Assembly: GCA_903928015.1 (NCBI GenBank)
Contig: CAIYPF010000028.1
Location: 1 to 43,005, forward strand
DNA length: 43,005 nucleotides
Source of the DNA: an uncultured Gammaproteobacteria bacterium
Lineage (GTDB): Bacteria; Pseudomonadota; Gammaproteobacteria; Pseudomonadales; UBA5518
Direction: 5' to 3'
Position numbers and translations under genes: made by a program. The notes under the pieces were generated by a model. That model saw only the letters and a list, made by a program, of their open reading frames with translations. It made no database searches and had not been told where the DNA came from. Below are positions 254 to 9,907 of the stretch, one piece after another (positions within the stretch are counted from its first letter, which is position 1; the number at the start of each line of letters is the position of its first letter).

Positions 254-3200
254 TTGACCTTGGACGCAGCGTGTTCCGATGGCGAAGCTCCGGATGCAGA
301 GCGCAGCTTCGCTTTTTCACAAGAGCGACAGCACTCCCGGTTTCGGGCCTTTCAGCTGTTTTCGAGAGCCCGTTGGCGGGATCTTCACGTTCTGTTTCTG
401 CCACTGCTCCTGCTGGTGCAGTCTTCCTTTGTCGAATCCCAGTCGATTGCCCTCAAGACCCTTGAAACCAGGGACCTGCTGCTCGTCAACGCAGCTGGCA
501 ATGAGCCGGCCATCGCCTCGCACGCCGCGAAAAGCTACCTGAATGCCTCCGCATTCCATCAGCGACTCTTCCGCTGGGGTCCCGACGGACAGGTGAGCCT
601 CCTGTTCATGGATTTCCAGGATGAAGGCAATGCCTCGGCAGGTGTCGTTCCGCGGAATTTGGTGACGTCAGAAGTATCCCCGCCCGGAAAGGCCTTCGAG
701 TCATTCCCTCCGGTCGACCCCATCTTTGCGCTGATGAACCATGAGGTCGCGCACCTGGCAACGCTTGGCTACAGCGGCCCGTCGGAAACCACATGGAGAA
801 AAATCTTTGCAGGGACGCCGGCCCAGTCGTCCGAGCACCCTGAAACCATTGGCTATGCCTACCTCGCCGCCCCTCGCACCGCCATGCCGCGGTGGACGTC
901 GGAGGGCATCGCGACCTTTATGGACACGTGGATGACCGGAGGTATTGGCCGGGCACAGGGCGGCTTCGACGAGATGGTCTTCCGCGCCATGGTGCGCGAC
1001 GGGACCCCGTTCTACAGCAACCTCGGCGTGGCGTCTGTCGGAGGTGTACTCGATTTCAATACCGGCCGAAACGCTTACCTGTACGGCACGCGATTCATGA
1101 GTTATCTGGCCTTTCACTATTCCCCGGAAAAACTCGTGGCGTGGTTCCGTCAGGACTCGGGCAGCGAGCGTTACTACGCGGATCAGTTCGAGAAGGTCTT
1201 CGGCGAGCCACTGGAGGTCGTCTGGCAGCACTGGATCGACTTCGAACACGAATTCCAGAAAAAAAACCTTTCGGCTGTCAGGGCGCATCCGTTGACGAGC
1301 GGGGAAGCGCTCTCCGCTGAGCCGATAGGCTGGGTGTCGAGAATGTTCGTGGATGAGAAGAGCAACAGCCTGGTGGGCGGGCTGATGTACCCGGGCGTGG
1401 TTGCACACCTGGCGACGATCTCCCTCGACACGGGCACCGAGCAGCCCCTGCACGACATCAAAGGTGAGGTGAAGTACCTGGTCAGCTCCACCGCCTGGGA
1501 TCCCGAAAGCCGACGGCTGTTCTTCACCGAGGACAACAACGCCTGGCGCGACCTGCGCTCGCTGGACATGGCCACGGGCAAGGTAACCGACATCGCAACA
1601 GATACCCGCATCGGCAATCTCGCCTTCAACAGCGCGGACAAGTCGCTGTGGGGCGTCAAGCACCAGGGCGGGAACGTCACCCTTGTCGGGATCCCCGCGC
1701 CCTACGAAAAACTGATCGAGTTACACAAGATGCCCTACGGGCAGGTGATCAGCGATCTCGATATCTCGCCCAACGGGACACTCCTGTCGGCGACGGTGGG
1801 TGACCGGCAGGGCAACCAGCGGCTTCAGGTGTTCCGTATCAGCGAGGTGGTCAACGGTGTCTTCGCGCCCGCAGCCCAGTTCGATTTCGGGCGCGCCTTC
1901 CCGGAGAACTTCGTGTTCTCGCCGGATGGGAAGTACCTGTATGGCAGTTCGTACTACACGGGTGTTTCCAATATCTACCGATTCGATCTGGCGACCTTTC
2001 AGATGGACGCGGTAACGAATGCGGAAACCGGGTTCTTCCGACCGATCCCGCAGGCCGACGGCTCACTCATCGTCTTCGAGTACACCGGTGACGGCTTCAA
2101 GCCCCTGCGCCTCAGGAACCCGCAACCGCTGCAGGACCTGAGCGCCATTTCTTTCCTGGGCAACGAACTCGTCACCAAACATCCGGTGGTCGGCACCTGG
2201 GGCGCGGGCGATCCTGCCAAGGTCGAACTCGAGTCGCAGATCACCAGCCGCGAGGACTACGTGCCGTGGCGCCGGCTGAAACACGAGTCTTCCTATCCGA
2301 TACTCGAGGCCTACAAGGAGAAGGCCGCTGTGGGCTACAGCTTCAACTGGAGCGACCCGGTACAGCTCGATTCAGCACGCCTCGACCTCAGCTACTCCCC
2401 GGGCGGCGGCATCGAGAGTGACGAGCGGCTGCACGTGGATGCACGTTACAAGCACATGGACTGGGGCATCCGATATCGCCACAACGATGCCGATTTCTAC
2501 GACCTCTTCGGCCCCACCGAACGCAGCCGTAAAGGTGATTCGCTGCTCGTGAGCTATGACCATTTCATGGTCTACGACATGCCCAGGACCCTGAAATTCA
2601 GCGCGGATCTGGGCTATTCCAGAAGTCTCGACACCCTGCCCACGAACCAGAACGCCGCAGTGCAGATAGATGAGCTGTGGTCGGGGAATTTCGGCTGGGA
2701 GTTCTCGCACAAGAAAAGATCCCAGGGCGCCGCCGTAGACGAAAAAGGCCTGCGCCTGGAGCTGCGTTCGGACATGGATTACGCGCAGTCCGAACTGTAT
2801 CCGAAGATTCACGGGGCACTCGATGTCGGCTTCGCCCTTCCCTTCAAGCACGCATCGGTGTGGCTCTACACCTCTGCGGGGGCGGCGAACGGCGACCGCG
2901 ATGATGCACTCACGGAGTTCTACTTCGGCGGCTACGGCAACAACTACGTCGACAACGACTCGGTCAAACGCTATCGCGATTACGACAGCTTGCCCGGCTT
3001 CGAGATCGGCGAGATCAGCGCACGGCAATTTGCCAAGGCATTGGTGGAGGTGAACGCGCCGCCGTTGCGATTTGCTGAAGTCGGCACACCCGCGCTCTAC
3101 CTCGGCGAAATCCAGCCCTCGATCTTCGCGGGCACCCTGTTCGCGGAGCCGGGCTCATCCCGTGAAGAGCGCTATTCCGCGGTCGGTGCACAGTTAGATC

Positions 3201-3316
3201 TCTCGTTCACGGCGCTGCACCGCCTGCCCATGACCCTGTCGGTGGGTTACGCACGGGGAATTGCGTCTGGCGGCGACAGTTCGGGTGAGTTCATGCTGTC
3301 GCTCAAGATTCTTTGA
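254..3316 (+). CDS. Envelope protein: HExxH metallopeptidase + beta-propeller + outer-membrane barrel
   Basis: This protein of 1020 residues has three visible parts. Residues about 60-335 hold a gluzincin-type zinc site: HEVAH at 163-167 and a probable third ligand Glu217 in the segment SEGIATFMD. Residues about 360-690 are WD40/TolB-like blades. From about 700 to the end, alternating aromatic strands form a probable outer-membrane barrel, with SLPGFEIGE resembling the Omp85 lid-lock segment. A hydrophobic stretch at about 45-58 looks like a signal sequence. TTG at 254 is the only usual start after the in-frame TGA at 248, which leaves an odd 40-residue lead before the signal, so the start is uncertain. 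prsW follows after 12 nt. The role is inferred to be envelope proteolysis; the substrate is unknown. Confidence 0.7.
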   Translation: MTLDAACSDGEAPDAERSFAFSQERQHSRFRAFQLFSRARWRDLHVLFLPLLLLVQSSFVESQSIALKTLETRDLLLVNAAGNEPAIASHAAKSYLNASAFHQRLFRWGPDGQVSLLFMDFQDEGNASAGVVPRNLVTSEVSPPGKAFESFPPVDPIFALMNHEVAHLATLGYSGPSETTWRKIFAGTPAQSSEHPETIGYAYLAAPRTAMPRWTSEGIATFMDTWMTGGIGRAQGGFDEMVFRAMVRDGTPFYSNLGVASVGGVLDFNTGRNAYLYGTRFMSYLAFHYSPEKLVAWFRQDSGSERYYADQFEKVFGEPLEVVWQHWIDFEHEFQKKNLSAVRAHPLTSGEALSAEPIGWVSRMFVDEKSNSLVGGLMYPGVVAHLATISLDTGTEQPLHDIKGEVKYLVSSTAWDPESRRLFFTEDNNAWRDLRSLDMATGKVTDIATDTRIGNLAFNSADKSLWGVKHQGGNVTLVGIPAPYEKLIELHKMPYGQVISDLDISPNGTLLSATVGDRQGNQRLQVFRISEVVNGVFAPAAQFDFGRAFPENFVFSPDGKYLYGSSYYTGVSNIYRFDLATFQMDAVTNAETGFFRPIPQADGSLIVFEYTGDGFKPLRLRNPQPLQDLSAISFLGNELVTKHPVVGTWGAGDPAKVELESQITSREDYVPWRRLKHESSYPILEAYKEKAAVGYSFNWSDPVQLDSARLDLSYSPGGGIESDERLHVDARYKHMDWGIRYRHNDADFYDLFGPTERSRKGDSLLVSYDHFMVYDMPRTLKFSADLGYSRSLDTLPTNQNAAVQIDELWSGNFGWEFSHKKRSQGAAVDEKGLRLELRSDMDYAQSELYPKIHGALDVGFALPFKHASVWLYTSAGAANGDRDDALTEFYFGGYGNNYVDNDSVKRYRDYDSLPGFEIGEISARQFAKALVEVNAPPLRFAEVGTPALYLGEIQPSIFAGTLFAEPGSSREERYSAVGAQLDLSFTALHRLPMTLSVGYARGIASGGDSSGEFMLSLKIL
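1259..1266 (+). other. A8 run forming an in-frame A_AAA_AAC slippery heptamer
   Basis: Eight adenines sit in a GC-rich gene at codons 336-338 (Lys-Lys-Asn). They are phased so that the zero frame reads A AAA AAC, the classic -1 slippery heptamer. A -1 shift would stop at 1318-1320 after about 17 further residues. The site lies where the peptidase part ends and the propeller begins. Confidence 0.4.
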
Positions 3317-5010: not shown

Positions 5011-5538
5011 TCAGTGCCCGGCGAACTCACCCAGCCAGAAAGTGCTGATTCCGAGCGCCTCGAGGCGCCGTGTACCGCCCAGATCCGGCAGGTTGATGGC
5101 TGCGGCCAATTCCACGATCTGCCCGCCAAGCTCTTGCACCAGTGCGATGGCGGCCTCTGCCGTGCCTCCGGTGGCGATCAGGTCATCCACCAGCAGCACC
5201 TGCTCTCCCGGGGCGATGGCATCGACATGGATTTCCAGCCTGTCGCTGCCGTACTCGAGCGCATAGTCGCGTCCGATCACCGCGGACGGCAGCTTGCCGC
5301 GCTTGCGCACGGGTACGAAGCCGGCGCCCAGCGCCCAGGCAAGCGGCGCCCCGAGAATGAAACCGCGCGCCTCGATGGCGGCCACCTTGTCGATGCGCAC
5401 GTGGCGGTAGCGCTCCACCAGCGCTCCGATCATCAGCCGGAAGCCATCGGCATCCTGCAGCAGCGTCGTGATGTCGCGGAACATGATTCCGTCGCGCGGG
5501 TAGTGGGGGATCGTGCGGATGCGTGACTCGATGTGCAT
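5011..5538 (-). CDS. apt: Adenine phosphoribosyltransferase
   Basis: Apt salvages adenine to AMP using PRPP in the cytoplasm. The 175-residue product has the normal family length. It begins MHIESRI and carries IPHYPRDGIMFRDIT near the N-terminus. The type I phosphoribosyltransferase PRPP-binding loop is VLLVDDLIATGGTAEAA (about 114-130). The frame is open upstream to 5817, but the ATG at 5538 gives the standard Apt N-terminus. It starts 8 nt after the hydrolase gene ends, so the two are likely co-transcribed. The identification is firm. Confidence 0.95.
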   Translation of the reverse strand: MHIESRIRTIPHYPRDGIMFRDITTLLQDADGFRLMIGALVERYRHVRIDKVAAIEARGFILGAPLAWALGAGFVPVRKRGKLPSAVIGRDYALEYGSDRLEIHVDAIAPGEQVLLVDDLIATGGTAEAAIALVQELGGQIVELAAAINLPDLGGTRRLEALGISTFWLGEFAGH

Positions 5539-6350: not shown

Positions 6351-6377
6351 CCCCTCACGCCCTGCAGGAATCTTCCC

Positions 6378-7157
6378 GTGAAACCCACCGCCCTCGTCAC
6401 CGGCGCCGCGCAAGGCGTTGGACTTGTTACCGCCACCCTTCTTGCCGAGCGCGGCTATGCAGTGTTCCTCACCGATGTGCAGTCGCTCGACGACACCGTG
6501 GCTCGCTTGCGTTCGGCGGGGCATGCGGTGGAAGGCATCAGCGGTGATGTGTCATCCGAATCTTTCGCGCAGCAGCTGGCAGCACATGTGGCGGCCGCGC
6601 ATGGCGCGCTCGATGTGCTGGTGAACAACGCCGGGATCAGTTGCATCGTCCCTGCGGAAGACACCACCGTGGAGCAGTGGCAGCGGGTGATGGACGTGAA
6701 CCTCCTCGGTCCCTTCCTGCTCTGCAAGCACCTCGGTGCACAGATGCTTGTGCGCGGCCGCGGCAGCATCGTCAACATCGCCTCCATCGCGGGGCTGCGC
6801 GGCGTGAGCCATCGCGCCGCCTACAACGCATCCAAGCACGGATTGATCGGTCTGACCCACACGTTGGCGGCGGAGTGGGGCGGGCGTGGTGTGCGCGTGA
6901 ACGCCGTTTGCCCCGGCTGGATCAAGACCGGGATGGACGAGGCCGATCAGGGCCCCGGCAATTACAGCGATGACGACATCAAAAACCGCGTGCCCATGGC
7001 GCGTTTCGCCAGCCCGCGGGATGTGGCAGAGGCCGTGGTCTTCCTTGCGGATGCGGGCCTGAGCGGATTCGTGAACGGCGTCAGCCTGCCGGTGGACGGC
7101 GGCTGGCTGGCGGACGCGAGCTGGGAGACACTGAGGTTGAGGACACGCAGTACCTGA
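6378..7157 (+). CDS. Short-chain dehydrogenase/reductase (classical SDR)
   Basis: This 259-residue NAD(P)-dependent oxidoreductase has the Rossmann motif TGAAQGVG at the N-terminus and NNAG in strand 4. Ser in IVNIASIAG and the YNASK motif form the catalytic triad, followed by the segment VCPGWIKTGM. The frame is open far upstream, but that part lies antisense to the hydrolase. The GTG at 6378, with AGGAA about 8 nt ahead, gives the standard SDR N-terminus (VKPTALVTG). The family reduces or oxidises alcohols and ketones such as 3-oxoacyl groups; the substrate is unknown here. It stands alone behind the palindrome at 6332. Confidence 0.85.
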   Translation: MKPTALVTGAAQGVGLVTATLLAERGYAVFLTDVQSLDDTVARLRSAGHAVEGISGDVSSESFAQQLAAHVAAAHGALDVLVNNAGISCIVPAEDTTVEQWQRVMDVNLLGPFLLCKHLGAQMLVRGRGSIVNIASIAGLRGVSHRAAYNASKHGLIGLTHTLAAEWGGRGVRVNAVCPGWIKTGMDEADQGPGNYSDDDIKNRVPMARFASPRDVAEAVVFLADAGLSGFVNGVSLPVDGGWLADASWETLRLRTRST

Positions 7158-7306
7158 TGTTCACCTGATTCCGCCCGTTTCTGGAAAAGGTCATGAACGG
7201 CGTCTAGGCTGAGTCCTGTTGGCGGTACGCAGCCACACGGATGGACCTTTGGCGTCCGGGCGCAAGACTACTGTCCGCAACGCCGCATGCAAGGGAAGCT
7301 TTTTTG

Positions 7307-9907
7307 ATGTCATGGACGAATACCTCCTCTTTTGCAGGGAAATTGCAGAGTTTTGCTACCAGCCCCGCACTCAGTACCGAGTGCGGGCGTCATATCACAT
7401 ATGCCGAGCTCTGCGCTCTGGCGGACGCATTCGCTGCGGGGACCAAGGGCGAGCATTCTTTGCTCCTGATCGAGATGTCACCCACGCCGGAGGCTGTAGC
7501 CGCTTATGTCGGAGCGCTGCGCGCCCGAATTCCGGTGATTCTTGCCTCGCCGGGGACTTGTGAGGCCTCGCCCGGGCTCCTCGAGACCTTTTCGCCTGAT
7601 TATGTTTACCGCGAGATTTCCGGCAGCTGGATTCTCGAGAACCTGCAGGGCGATGCCCGCCGGCTCCCGCCTCACCCGGATCTTGCAGTGCTGCTCTCGA
7701 CCTCGGGATCCACCGGCAGCCCCAAGCTGGTAAAACTGTCGATCGGCAATGTGAGCGCCAACGCCGCGTCCATCGCCGAGTACCTCGGAATAGACAATCG
7801 GCGCGTGGCGATCACCAACCTGCCGCTGCACTACTCCTATGGGCTATCTGTTCTCAACAGTTTCCTTGCAAGCGGTGCGCGCGTCGTCCTCACCGATCTC
7901 TCCGTGGTTGATCCGTGTTTCCGTGCGCTGGCAGTGCGCGAGGGCGTCACGGATCTTGCGGGCGTGCCATACACCTACGAGTTACTCGAGCGCAGCGGCT
8001 TCCGGGACAACGTGCCGCCAACACTGCGTGTGATGACGCAGGCGGGCGGGCGCCTGCCGTCCGATCTCGTCTCCACTTATGCCTCATTCGCTCGCGACAA
8101 TGACCTGCGTTTTTACGTGATGTACGGGCAGACCGAAGCAACGGCCCGCATGGCCTACCTTCCGCTCGAGCACGTCGAGGCCAATCCCGGATGCATCGGG
8201 ATCGCGATTCCCGGTGGGGAATTCAGCATTCTCGGTCCCGACGGCGTCAGTCCCGTGCCTGAGCCCGGGGTGGCAGGCGAGCTCGTATATCGCGGCCCGA
8301 ACGTCATGATGGGCTATGCCTTCACCCGCGATGATCTTGCTGCGGGACCCTCCCTCGAGGAGTTGCGCACGGGGGATATCGCGCTGCGCGAGCCCAACGG
8401 TTTGTTCCGCATCGTGGGGAGAGCGAGCCGCTTCAGCAAGATCGCAGGGCTGCGCATCGGCTTCGATGACGTCGAACGGATTGTCCGCGAAGCTCGTGCA
8501 GCCGGCTTTGTGACCGGGACGGACGATTGCATCGCCATCGCACTCACACGGGGCGATCCCACTACGGTCGCGCGCCATGTGTCCGAGCGCTGCGGCTTGC
8601 CGCAGCGCCTGATCGCGATACTGCCCATGGCGACCCCGCCGACGCTGGTATCAGGCAAGATCGATTATGAGGCGATAAAACGCGATGGCGTGGCTCTGCT
8701 CGCCCAGCGTCGTTCAGTCGCGGCAGAGGCTGGTGCCGGGCGCAGCGTGGCGGCGATATTCTGCGATGCGCTTTCCCTCGACGATGTCGACGAAACGCGC
8801 ACGTTCGTGGAACTGGGCGGTGACTCGCTGACGTTCGCCGTGGTCTCTCTCGCCCTCGAGAGAGCCATTGGATCGGTGCCGGAGGGTTGGCAGGGCACTC
8901 CGATTGCCACGCTCCAGGCCCTGCTGGATGAGGGTGCCGGGAAAGCCGGTGCTTCGCCGAGCGTCCAGCTCGGCAGCGATGTGATCCTGCGGCTGATCGC
9001 CATATCAATGGTGTTTCTGGGCCACGGCGCACCCCGGGATGTGGTGGGCTGGTTGAAGGGAGGCTCCGTCGTGCTCTTCATGCTCGCCGGTTTGAGTTTT
9101 GCCACCTACCAGGTGCCGCAACTCCTGGCCGGAGGTGCGAGGGTCGTCATGAGAGGAGCCCTGATCCGTCTTGTTCTTCCCTACTTCGTGCTGATGACGG
9201 TCGTATTGCTGGGATCGCAAGCGGAGAAATCGCCGGCGTGGTACCTGCTCGGCACCGTTTTCACGCTGACACCTGATGAACGCGGCGTGCTGTTCCCGTT
9301 CTGGTTTATCGAGACATTGGTGCACGCGATGCTTTTCTCGTGCCTGTTGACGGCATTGCCCCCCGTGCGGGCAGCACTGCGGACACGTCCGTTTGAGCTC
9401 TCTGTCCTCTTGATGCTCGTGGCTGGAGCCCTGTGTTTCTGGGGTGCGAGTGAGTGGCCCAACGGACGGGGTCTCAACCGCACACTGGACGGATGGCTCT
9501 ACGCCTTCTTCCTCGGTTGGGCCATGCACTACGCCGACACCCCGGCTCGCCGCGCCATCGCGGGCCTGCTGGCAGTGTGCATAGCCGTCGTACAATTCGG
9601 CCCCGAGAGTTCGCGGCCGTGGTGGTTTCTCGGCGCGATCAGCGTGTTGGTTACGATGCCTTCAGTGCGACTCCCGCGCAGTGTGGCCGAGGTTATGGTG
9701 TCGATCGCGGGTGCCACCTACTTCATGTACCTGGCGCATCCGGTCGTGATGCACTTCGTGCTGTATGAGTTCGGTTCACTGTTCCATAGGCGTACGGAAA
9801 TCGCCCTTGTGTACCTCGGGTCGGTAATCGCGGGCCTTGTCTATGCGCGCGCATGGCGGGAGTTCATGCTGCTTTCCCGTCGTGGGATTGCCCTGATAAA
9901 ACGCTGA
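7307..9907 (+). CDS. Adenylation-carrier-acyltransferase 3 fusion (NRPS-like membrane acyl-transfer enzyme)
   Basis: Three domains lie in one 866-residue chain. An ANL adenylation domain (about 1-465) has STSGSTGSPK (131-140), YGQTEA (273-278), RTGD (354-357), the GRASRFSKIAGLRIG hinge and Lys451 in SGKID. A peptidyl/acyl-carrier domain (about 475-545) has the phosphopantetheine serine in LGGDS (Ser507). A membrane acyltransferase-3 domain (about 555-866) has the family's Arg-X10-His (Arg562, His573) and about nine hydrophobic segments, including YLAHPVVMH. There is no condensation or thioesterase domain. By analogy with DltA/DltC/DltB it probably activates an amino or other acid, loads it on the carrier and passes it across the inner membrane. 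The ATG at 7307 is preferred over 7241 because AAGGGAAG lies 8 nt ahead. Confidence 0.88.
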   Translation: MSWTNTSSFAGKLQSFATSPALSTECGRHITYAELCALADAFAAGTKGEHSLLLIEMSPTPEAVAAYVGALRARIPVILASPGTCEASPGLLETFSPDYVYREISGSWILENLQGDARRLPPHPDLAVLLSTSGSTGSPKLVKLSIGNVSANAASIAEYLGIDNRRVAITNLPLHYSYGLSVLNSFLASGARVVLTDLSVVDPCFRALAVREGVTDLAGVPYTYELLERSGFRDNVPPTLRVMTQAGGRLPSDLVSTYASFARDNDLRFYVMYGQTEATARMAYLPLEHVEANPGCIGIAIPGGEFSILGPDGVSPVPEPGVAGELVYRGPNVMMGYAFTRDDLAAGPSLEELRTGDIALREPNGLFRIVGRASRFSKIAGLRIGFDDVERIVREARAAGFVTGTDDCIAIALTRGDPTTVARHVSERCGLPQRLIAILPMATPPTLVSGKIDYEAIKRDGVALLAQRRSVAAEAGAGRSVAAIFCDALSLDDVDETRTFVELGGDSLTFAVVSLALERAIGSVPEGWQGTPIATLQALLDEGAGKAGASPSVQLGSDVILRLIAISMVFLGHGAPRDVVGWLKGGSVVLFMLAGLSFATYQVPQLLAGGARVVMRGALIRLVLPYFVLMTVVLLGSQAEKSPAWYLLGTVFTLTPDERGVLFPFWFIETLVHAMLFSCLLTALPPVRAALRTRPFELSVLLMLVAGALCFWGASEWPNGRGLNRTLDGWLYAFFLGWAMHYADTPARRAIAGLLAVCIAVVQFGPESSRPWWFLGAISVLVTMPSVRLPRSVAEVMVSIAGATYFMYLAHPVVMHFVLYEFGSLFHRRTEIALVYLGSVIAGLVYARAWREFMLLSRRGIALIKR

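Follow-up and report, generated by a model that had tools for sequence, protein, structure and literature searches.

A fused adenylation-carrier-acyltransferase protein of an uncultured gammaproteobacterium and its probably iron-linked family

Background

What is achieved by a protein that joins an adenylation domain of the ANL superfamily, a carrier domain and a membrane-bound acyltransferase-3 (AT3) domain in one chain? This question is raised by a gene on contig CAIYPF010000028.1 of assembly GCA_903928015.1, derived from an uncultured gammaproteobacterium. The window, i.e. the whole stretch of DNA analyzed here, comprises 43,005 nucleotides. A sequence-only reading of the window had described the gene as a compact Dlt-like system moving an activated amino or hydroxy acid across the membrane. 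Its observation on the domain architecture is correct; the breadth of the family and the link to iron control were both absent from it. We consider it rather probable that the protein is a self-contained acyl exporter belonging to a family that is iron-linked in most of its members. In an open-access library of papers, no description of the architecture or its regulon was found.

Results

Domain architecture and distribution of the family

The open reading frame (ORF) runs from the ATG at 7307 through 9907 without an internal stop. This ATG is preceded by AAGGGAAG-CTTTTTTG, and an alternative in-frame ATG at 7241 would lengthen the ORF. All three domains of the 866-residue protein exceeded the curated Pfam thresholds. 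These were AMP-binding (PF00501) with 145 bits (cut-off 29.9; best stretch residues 121-337), PP-binding with 28.1 bits (cut-off 20.8; residues 481-522), and Acyl_transf_3 (PF01757) with 51.3 bits (cut-off 31; residues 561-846). A 40-row alignment including the window protein shows no variation at Lys451, Ser507, Arg562, and His573. Lys451 is the A10-type catalytic lysine, which together with the AMP-binding core places the protein in the ANL superfamily. The Pfam scan of the protein brought up neither a condensation nor a thioesterase family, and the protein does not qualify as a nonribosomal peptide synthetase (NRPS). Hence, the sequence-only reading was right on the single three-domain chain, on the positions of the four residues, on the lack of condensation and thioesterase domains, and on the AT3 nature of the membrane part.

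The architecture is widespread. A scan of genome contigs resulted in at least 479 confirmed relatives, of which the best 80 were kept, a choice that favors close relatives. In a tblastn search, 77 plasmid records had one place covering at least 80% of the protein; among the 20 matches listed, plasmid relatives were 35-37% identical to the window protein, and eight of these 20 were added as plasmid loci. In this combined sample, 59 loci encode ANL, carrier, and AT3 in one ORF, 37 of them in Actinobacteria and 22 in Proteobacteria; L062 was counted although it is frameshifted in the AT3 part. Beyond these 59, L047 and L057 possess a C-terminal AT3 of a different type. A further 27 loci encode an ANL without carrier and AT3, mostly as standalone enzymes, some being cut by contig ends. 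The 59 loci rule out chance or an assembly artefact as the origin of the architecture. Phage cargo was also rejected: none of 19 matching phage records reached 80% query coverage, and a viral contig scan confirmed none. The AT3 of some relatives falls below the Pfam cut-off (L021 with 30.0 and L109 with 27.5 bits), and that of L107 was not listed at E 1e-4.

In the order of the window organism, a carrier-AT3 profile matched in 6 out of 390 genomes. Four of these (the own genome included) contain an ORF of fused size, one contains AT3 alone, and one an ANL-carrier alone. The profile did not match in five other genomes of the same genus, and in the class sample it matched in 2 out of 369 genomes, again including the own one. 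The gene is thus sporadic in these taxa. An orphan AT3 of 309 aa in genome G484 (L110:9206-10132, minus strand) fits the family AT3 profile without matching a Pfam model at 1e-4; no ANL or carrier match was present in the surrounding 19.9 kb.

In two midpoint-rooted full-length trees the window protein (P0001) is sister to L021 (SH-aLRT 96 and 98). A quick tree of the ANL domain grouped it with L023 and L021 (87 each). In the latter tree the standalone enzymes form one clade (99) lying among the proteobacterial fused rows, and a single origin of the fusion is therefore not shown by it. Five rows were left out of the second full-length tree and seventeen out of the ANL-only tree; L055 and L063 are near-copies from one species. 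L017 (NZ_CP084753.1) is labelled Roseateles (UNVERIFIED_ORG), its protein groups with rhizobial sequences, and the label may be wrong.

The acyltransferase domain and its donor

An AF2 model of the AT3 part alone reached a predicted local distance difference test score (pLDDT) of 91.1 and a predicted template modelling score (pTM) of 0.90. Structure comparison by VIA matched this model to HGSNAT (8vlv; Z 14.2, root mean square deviation 4.8, 272 aligned) and GWT1 (8xik; Z 10.5, root mean square deviation 4.7, 252 aligned; other listed rows at most 4.7). Foldseek found no match at E <= 0.001, so that HGSNAT and GWT1 surfaced by VIA only. According to the model, the AT3 part is predicted to adopt the ten-helix TmAT fold.

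Parts of two published studies name as contacts of coenzyme A (CoA) an Asp and an Arg in transmembrane helix (TMH) 1, a Phe in TMH2, and an RXXR motif in TMH3 (PMC12423673, PMC9833829). These positions were compared between 59 fused rows and 24 ordinary AT3 proteins from related genomes. The fused rows comprise 58 of the 59 fused loci and the window protein, with L011, L047, L057, and the frameshifted L062 omitted; the ordinary set resulted from 30 loci after removal of one without an ORF and five with spurious ORFs. Arg562, His573, Gly737 (TMH6), and Tyr808 (TMH9) are kept in all 59 fused proteins. The acidic residue of TMH1 occurs in none of the fused but in 19 out of 24 ordinary proteins, the Phe of TMH2 in none versus 22, and RxxRxxP in one versus 15. 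The window protein has Ala618 and Arg621 in the aligned columns and does not display the conserved RXXR. Given this loss across the family, we call the domain a divergent AT3-fold domain rather than a standard AT3. The loss of most CoA-contact residues fits a donor role of the carrier phosphopantetheine, and the acyl donor to AT3 is probably this carrier-bound arm and not CoA.

The adenylation pocket

Pocket positions of the window ANL domain are Ser177, Tyr178, Ala246, Met272, and Arg281. In an alignment with VinN, Ser177 falls on Asp230, the residue that binds the amino group, and Arg281 falls on Arg331 (residue numbering and role of Asp230 after parts of PMC11253843). Among 90 sequences, position 177 is Ser in 49, Cys in 37, Thr in 3, and Val in 1, and never Asp. 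Arg281 is kept in all 90 and aligns with the Lys-Arg loop of VinN, where Arg331 presumably binds the second carboxylate. The pocket points to an acid bearing a second anionic or polar group close to Arg281. Perhaps the cargo is a small carboxylic acid lacking an alpha-amino group, such as a di- or hydroxycarboxylate, and this step is the weakest of our interpretation. An alpha-amino acid, which the sequence-only reading had allowed as cargo, is made very unlikely by the pocket because the Asp is missing at the amino-binding position in 90 out of 90 sequences.

Related loading modules with other outlets

In genome G097 (L112:8601-12687) an ANL-carrier has a GDSL/SGNH-like domain in the same chain (31.9 bits, slightly short of the Pfam cut-off of 32.9), and 1 bp past it begins a gene of MBOAT, the family of DltB (78.6 bits, cut-off 27). 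In genome G011 (L111:2946-9064) a 552-aa ANL-carrier is encoded 12 bp behind a separate AT3 gene in an exopolysaccharide-type cluster holding two AT3 genes, a flippase gene, and a Wzz/kinase-type gene. By eye, both G011 AT3 proteins (L127, L140) were seen to be without the usual TMH3 RXXR. One kind of loading module therefore meets four outlets: its own AT3, the AT3 type of L047 and L057, a separate AT3, and an SGNH-like domain with MBOAT. This variety argues for a membrane acyltransferase as the recipient of the loaded acyl group, similar to Dlt. Two standalone ANL enzymes are located in sugar-type clusters, L080 together with a carrier, a ketoreductase-type short-chain dehydrogenase (SDR), KAS III, and PglD, and L088 (8200-15214) together with an SDR, LuxE, LuxC, and a DegT aminotransferase. 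The gene set of L088 presumably resembles the tetronate genes of Vibrio cholerae.

Iron signals in Actinobacteria and Proteobacteria

The DtxR/IdeR consensus was scanned in 38 actinobacterial loci (37 fused and the truncated L069; 742,001 bases). A box was considered near if located between -250 and +260 of an ORF start, starts being uncertain, or at most 350 bp upstream of a binding-protein match. With up to 3 mismatches, 38 boxes were found in 32 out of 38 loci, all near the gene or operon start and none elsewhere. With up to 4 mismatches, boxes occurred in 35 out of 38 loci, again with none elsewhere, and one 3-base-block shuffle as a control gave a single 4-mismatch match. No box with up to 3 mismatches was found in nine actinobacterial loci with standalone ANL (191,109 bases) or in 25 proteobacterial loci (484,563 bases).

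In 23 of the 37 actinobacterial loci the family gene has genes for a ferric-type substrate-binding protein and a permease as neighbors, and 21 of these 23 also have an ATPase gene. The transporter lies downstream in 5, upstream in 9, divergently in 8, and convergently in 1 of them. None was found beside the gene in the 22 proteobacterial fused loci or the nine standalone actinobacterial loci. The binding proteins are of two types, of which 13 share at least 45% identity with the L013 protein and 10 share less than 40%, and the same enzyme family stands beside both. For all three binding proteins tried, the nearest solved structures are ferric-binding proteins (sfuA and YfuA for L013; 7w3w for L034 and L035). 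Three Rhodococcus records annotate the adjoining transporter as an iron ATP-binding cassette (ABC) transporter. A box is also present in 12 of 14 loci without the transporter, and thus is not merely the transporter's own.

For the rhizobia, part of PMC6386902 gives the RirA box consensus as TGA-N9-TCA. In 17 loci of one mainly rhizobial tree clade, this box was found between -120 and +60 of the ORF start in 14 out of 17 family genes, compared with 19 out of 220 for the other genes there; among all 22 proteobacterial fused loci the motif was found in 14. Irr boxes gave weak 4-mismatch matches only in the alphaproteobacterial loci. In G694, from the order of the window organism, a Fur hexamer array is located at -68 and is the sole one in 19.9 kb. 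No such array was found near the gene in L108, L109, L085, L039, L110, or L112. The predicted DtxR/IdeR or RirA boxes at the gene or operon start would place these relatives in an iron-starvation regulon.

In part of an earlier study, ndk of Sinorhizobium meliloti is SMc00595 (PMC2912261). The gene order in S. meliloti Ak57 is family gene, DinB, GST, ndk. Counting back along this order, the family gene would be SMc00592. Parts of a swarming transcriptome, in which the surface and not iron was varied, list SMc00592 as a 'hypothetical transmembrane protein' with M values of -0.44, 1.47, 1.30, and -0.23, close to those of hmuV and hmuT (PMC2848241). If the identification by gene order holds, SMc00592 co-varies with haem and siderophore genes. 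In L015, L024, L028, L029, and L049 (Sinorhizobium/Ensifer) a convergent gene, annotated as DinB in L015, overlaps the 3'-end of the family gene by approximately 59 bp.

Features and neighborhood of the window gene

Table 1. Location of the window gene and its domains and motifs
Feature	Position	Strand	Evidence
Fused ANL-carrier-AT3 gene, 866 aa	7307..9907, stop codon included	+	Translation; Pfam; 100% self match in own genome
ANL adenylation domain, approx. residues 5-458	7319..8680	+	Pfam, alignment, pocket analysis, VinN alignment, VIA matches
Carrier domain, approx. residues 481-545	8747..8941	+	Pfam PP-binding; helices in structure model
Ser507 codon in GGDS, expected phosphopantetheine site	8825..8827	+	Sequence; invariant in 40-row alignment
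AT3 membrane domain, approx. residues 555-866	8969..9904	+	Pfam; AF2 model; VIA match to HGSNAT
Arg562-X10-His573 motif, first membrane helix	8990..9025	+	Both residues in 59/59 fused and 24/24 ordinary AT3

A short-chain dehydrogenase gene on the same strand (approx. 6370-7157, +) ends 150 bp upstream of the window gene, and a carboxylesterase gene follows, also on the same strand. Dehydrogenase matches occur in 6 out of 67 related loci, and only two of these (L067 and L041; 27-32% identical) have the match no more than 600 bp from the gene; an esterase match occurs in one of the 67 (L047, 2.2 kb downstream, 31% identical). With matches this sparse, neither is a conserved neighbor, and it is fair to state that the window gene stands alone. 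The N-terminal part of the long ORF that starts at 5523 and holds the dehydrogenase seems spurious. The window ORF 254-3316 (+; 1020 aa) is without a Pfam match at 1e-5. In the own genome (G000, with the window as contig C28; a 4.27 Mb assembly of 220 contigs), the other eleven matches span only part of the adenylation domain, so a second full copy was not found.

Discussion

The domains, the conservation of their motifs, the regulator boxes, and the transporter linkage are all read from the sequence. Activation, loading, and export of an acyl group by one protein is highly probable for the family and for the window gene. The ANL domain would adenylate a small carboxylic acid without an alpha-amino group, probably with a second anionic or polar group near Arg281, and load it as a thioester on the phosphopantetheine of Ser507. 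The tethered carrier would then insert its arm into the AT3 pore from the cytoplasmic side, and Arg562 and His573 may support acyl transfer onto an acceptor on the outer face of the membrane. In most of the family this transfer would take place under iron starvation, the product probably aiding Fe(III) capture. In Actinobacteria the product might be an acylated chelator, either secreted or bound to the surface, that brings iron to an importer of the FbpABC/SfuABC type. The acid class, the carrier as donor, the direction of transfer, and the iron-related product are what we infer from the sequences. An iron role is likely for the actinobacterial and rhizobial branches. The window protein is a divergent member with machinery and pocket unchanged, and its own iron role is doubtful.

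Several observations weigh against this explanation. Regulator boxes tell when a gene is made and not what its function is. AimS is an AT3 that metal starvation induces, and its action leaves the metal content of the cell unaltered, as stated in part of PMC13345540. In NCBIfam, the binding protein and the ATPase of the transporter come closest to 2-aminoethylphosphonate families, with no score reaching its cut-off and that of the binding protein falling far short; the iron assignment of the transporter thus rests on solved structures and annotation. With a pTM of 0.57, the full-length structure model is unreliable as to domain docking. The window gene itself lies on a branch (with L021, L020, L023, L040, L044, and L109) in which no iron box was found. 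The 43,005 bases of the window contain no Fur hexamer array with up to 2 mismatches, and the best 15-mer upstream of the gene was matched by 85 out of 300 random windows. The ferric-binding protein of L013 used as a query, in a search run without a positive control, gave no match in the own genome. The sister L021 adjoins a Polysacc_synt flippase gene, and L047 is also located beside a flippase gene. On such a side branch, the mechanism transfers to the window gene better than the iron role.

The acceptor of the window protein may be a surface glycan, one of the options (lipopolysaccharide, glycan, or lipid) that the sequence-only reading had named. It is quite possible that in the window organism the protein decorates surface polysaccharide or lipopolysaccharide with an unusual acyl group, and that iron elsewhere only times such coat modification without a chelator being involved. 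Besides the two flippase genes, the second AT3 and the glycosyltransferase family 2 (GT2) gene adjoining L020, the G011 cluster, and the sugar-type clusters of L080 and L088 favor coat modification, and AT3 proteins commonly acylate glycans according to parts of PMC9558356. However, no polysaccharide gene was among the 20 annotated of 33 picked window genes, and the recurrent pairing with ferric importers in Actinobacteria is hard to square with coat changes alone.

Two further explanations concern the chemistry. In one, AT3 draws on acyl-CoA like other AT3 proteins, and the ANL-carrier half serves a different purpose. Parts of PMC9558356 name acyl-CoA as the donor of published AT3 proteins, Arg562 (the proposed contact of the CoA 3'-phosphate) is retained, and 30 out of 59 fused proteins keep the second TMH3 Arg. 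Furthermore, L057, which is also fused, retains canonical AT3 features by eye, so that the loss of CoA contacts is not universal. Maintenance of the fusion in 59 loci of two phyla, the loss of most CoA-contact residues, and ANL-carriers beside other membrane acyltransferases elsewhere nevertheless make this explanation unlikely. An ordinary NRPS-like amino acid module of the DltA, AlmE, or poly-lysine type with an AT3 outlet could be proposed from the PP-binding-type carrier and the many NRPS A domains among the solved-structure matches; the ANL-domain matches by VIA include MenE, VinN, MatB, and DltA. This is very unlikely in view of the missing Asp and the invariant Arg281, and the best NCBIfam match is the acyl-CoA ligase TIGR03098 (154 bits, far below the cut-off of 592), followed by an amino-acid adenylation model (113 bits, cut-off 317).

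We return to the self-contained acyl exporter. Tentatively, we propose a widespread and apparently undescribed one-protein pathway in which an adenylation domain and a tethered carrier take over from CoA as donor of a transmembrane AT3, and which has come separately under DtxR/IdeR, RirA, and Fur in different lineages. It would make an extracytoplasmic acyl iron ligand, probably a hydroxy- or dicarboxylate, that passes Fe(III) on to FbpABC/SfuABC, in the manner of a siderophore but without NRPS condensation or an NRPS-independent siderophore (NIS) synthetase. If true, this would be an unrecognized one-gene acylation route under iron starvation common to soil actinobacteria and rhizobia. Moreover, AT3 chemistry supplied by a carrier protein would have a natural example, in contrast to the acyl-CoA donor view in parts of PMC9558356. 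Gene, regulator sites, and a workable test organism (S. meliloti) are identified.

Comparison with known systems

The window protein shares PF01757, the R-X10-H motif, and the fold with OafB, OatA, and the TmAT superfamily (HGSNAT, GWT1), but its family lacks most CoA contacts and its donor is probably tethered. Fusion partners of AT3 named in the parts of the literature covered are SGNH, alanine racemase, and NRF, with ANL-carrier not among them. AimS of Acinetobacter baumannii is likewise an AT3, induced by low iron (part of PMC13345540), but stands alone without ANL or carrier. FbpABC/SfuABC resembles the transporter adjoining the gene in 23 of 37 actinobacterial loci, with binding proteins nearest to the sfuA/YfuA or 7w3w type; it is a separate transporter and not a homologue, and the own genome has no match to the one query used (L013). 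VinN, which acts on 3-methylaspartate, is alike in fold (Z 36.8; 3wv5) and in the Arg of the beta13-beta14 loop aligned with Arg281, but it has Asp230 instead of Ser177, and the loop is one residue longer in the alignment.

In the tetronate genes rfbKLMNO of V. cholerae O1 and in AlmEFG, ANL and carrier feed surface acylation. L088 is similar in its ANL with LuxE, LuxC, and SDR; in contrast to the window protein, both systems consist of separate genes and use other transferases. D-alanylation by DltABCD involves DltA as the ANL, DltC as the carrier, and DltB as the MBOAT, together with DltD. In both Dlt and the window protein a carrier charged by an ANL supplies a membrane acyltransferase, and this Dlt-like logic, proposed by the sequence-only reading, is backed by the SGNH-like domain and MBOAT of G097 and by the separate AT3 of G011. 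The window protein differs in its single chain, in AT3 in place of MBOAT, and in Ser177 in place of the amino-binding Asp. Lacking the Asp for D-Ala and the MBOAT outlet, it would work like Dlt as a system of its own rather than as a Dlt member.

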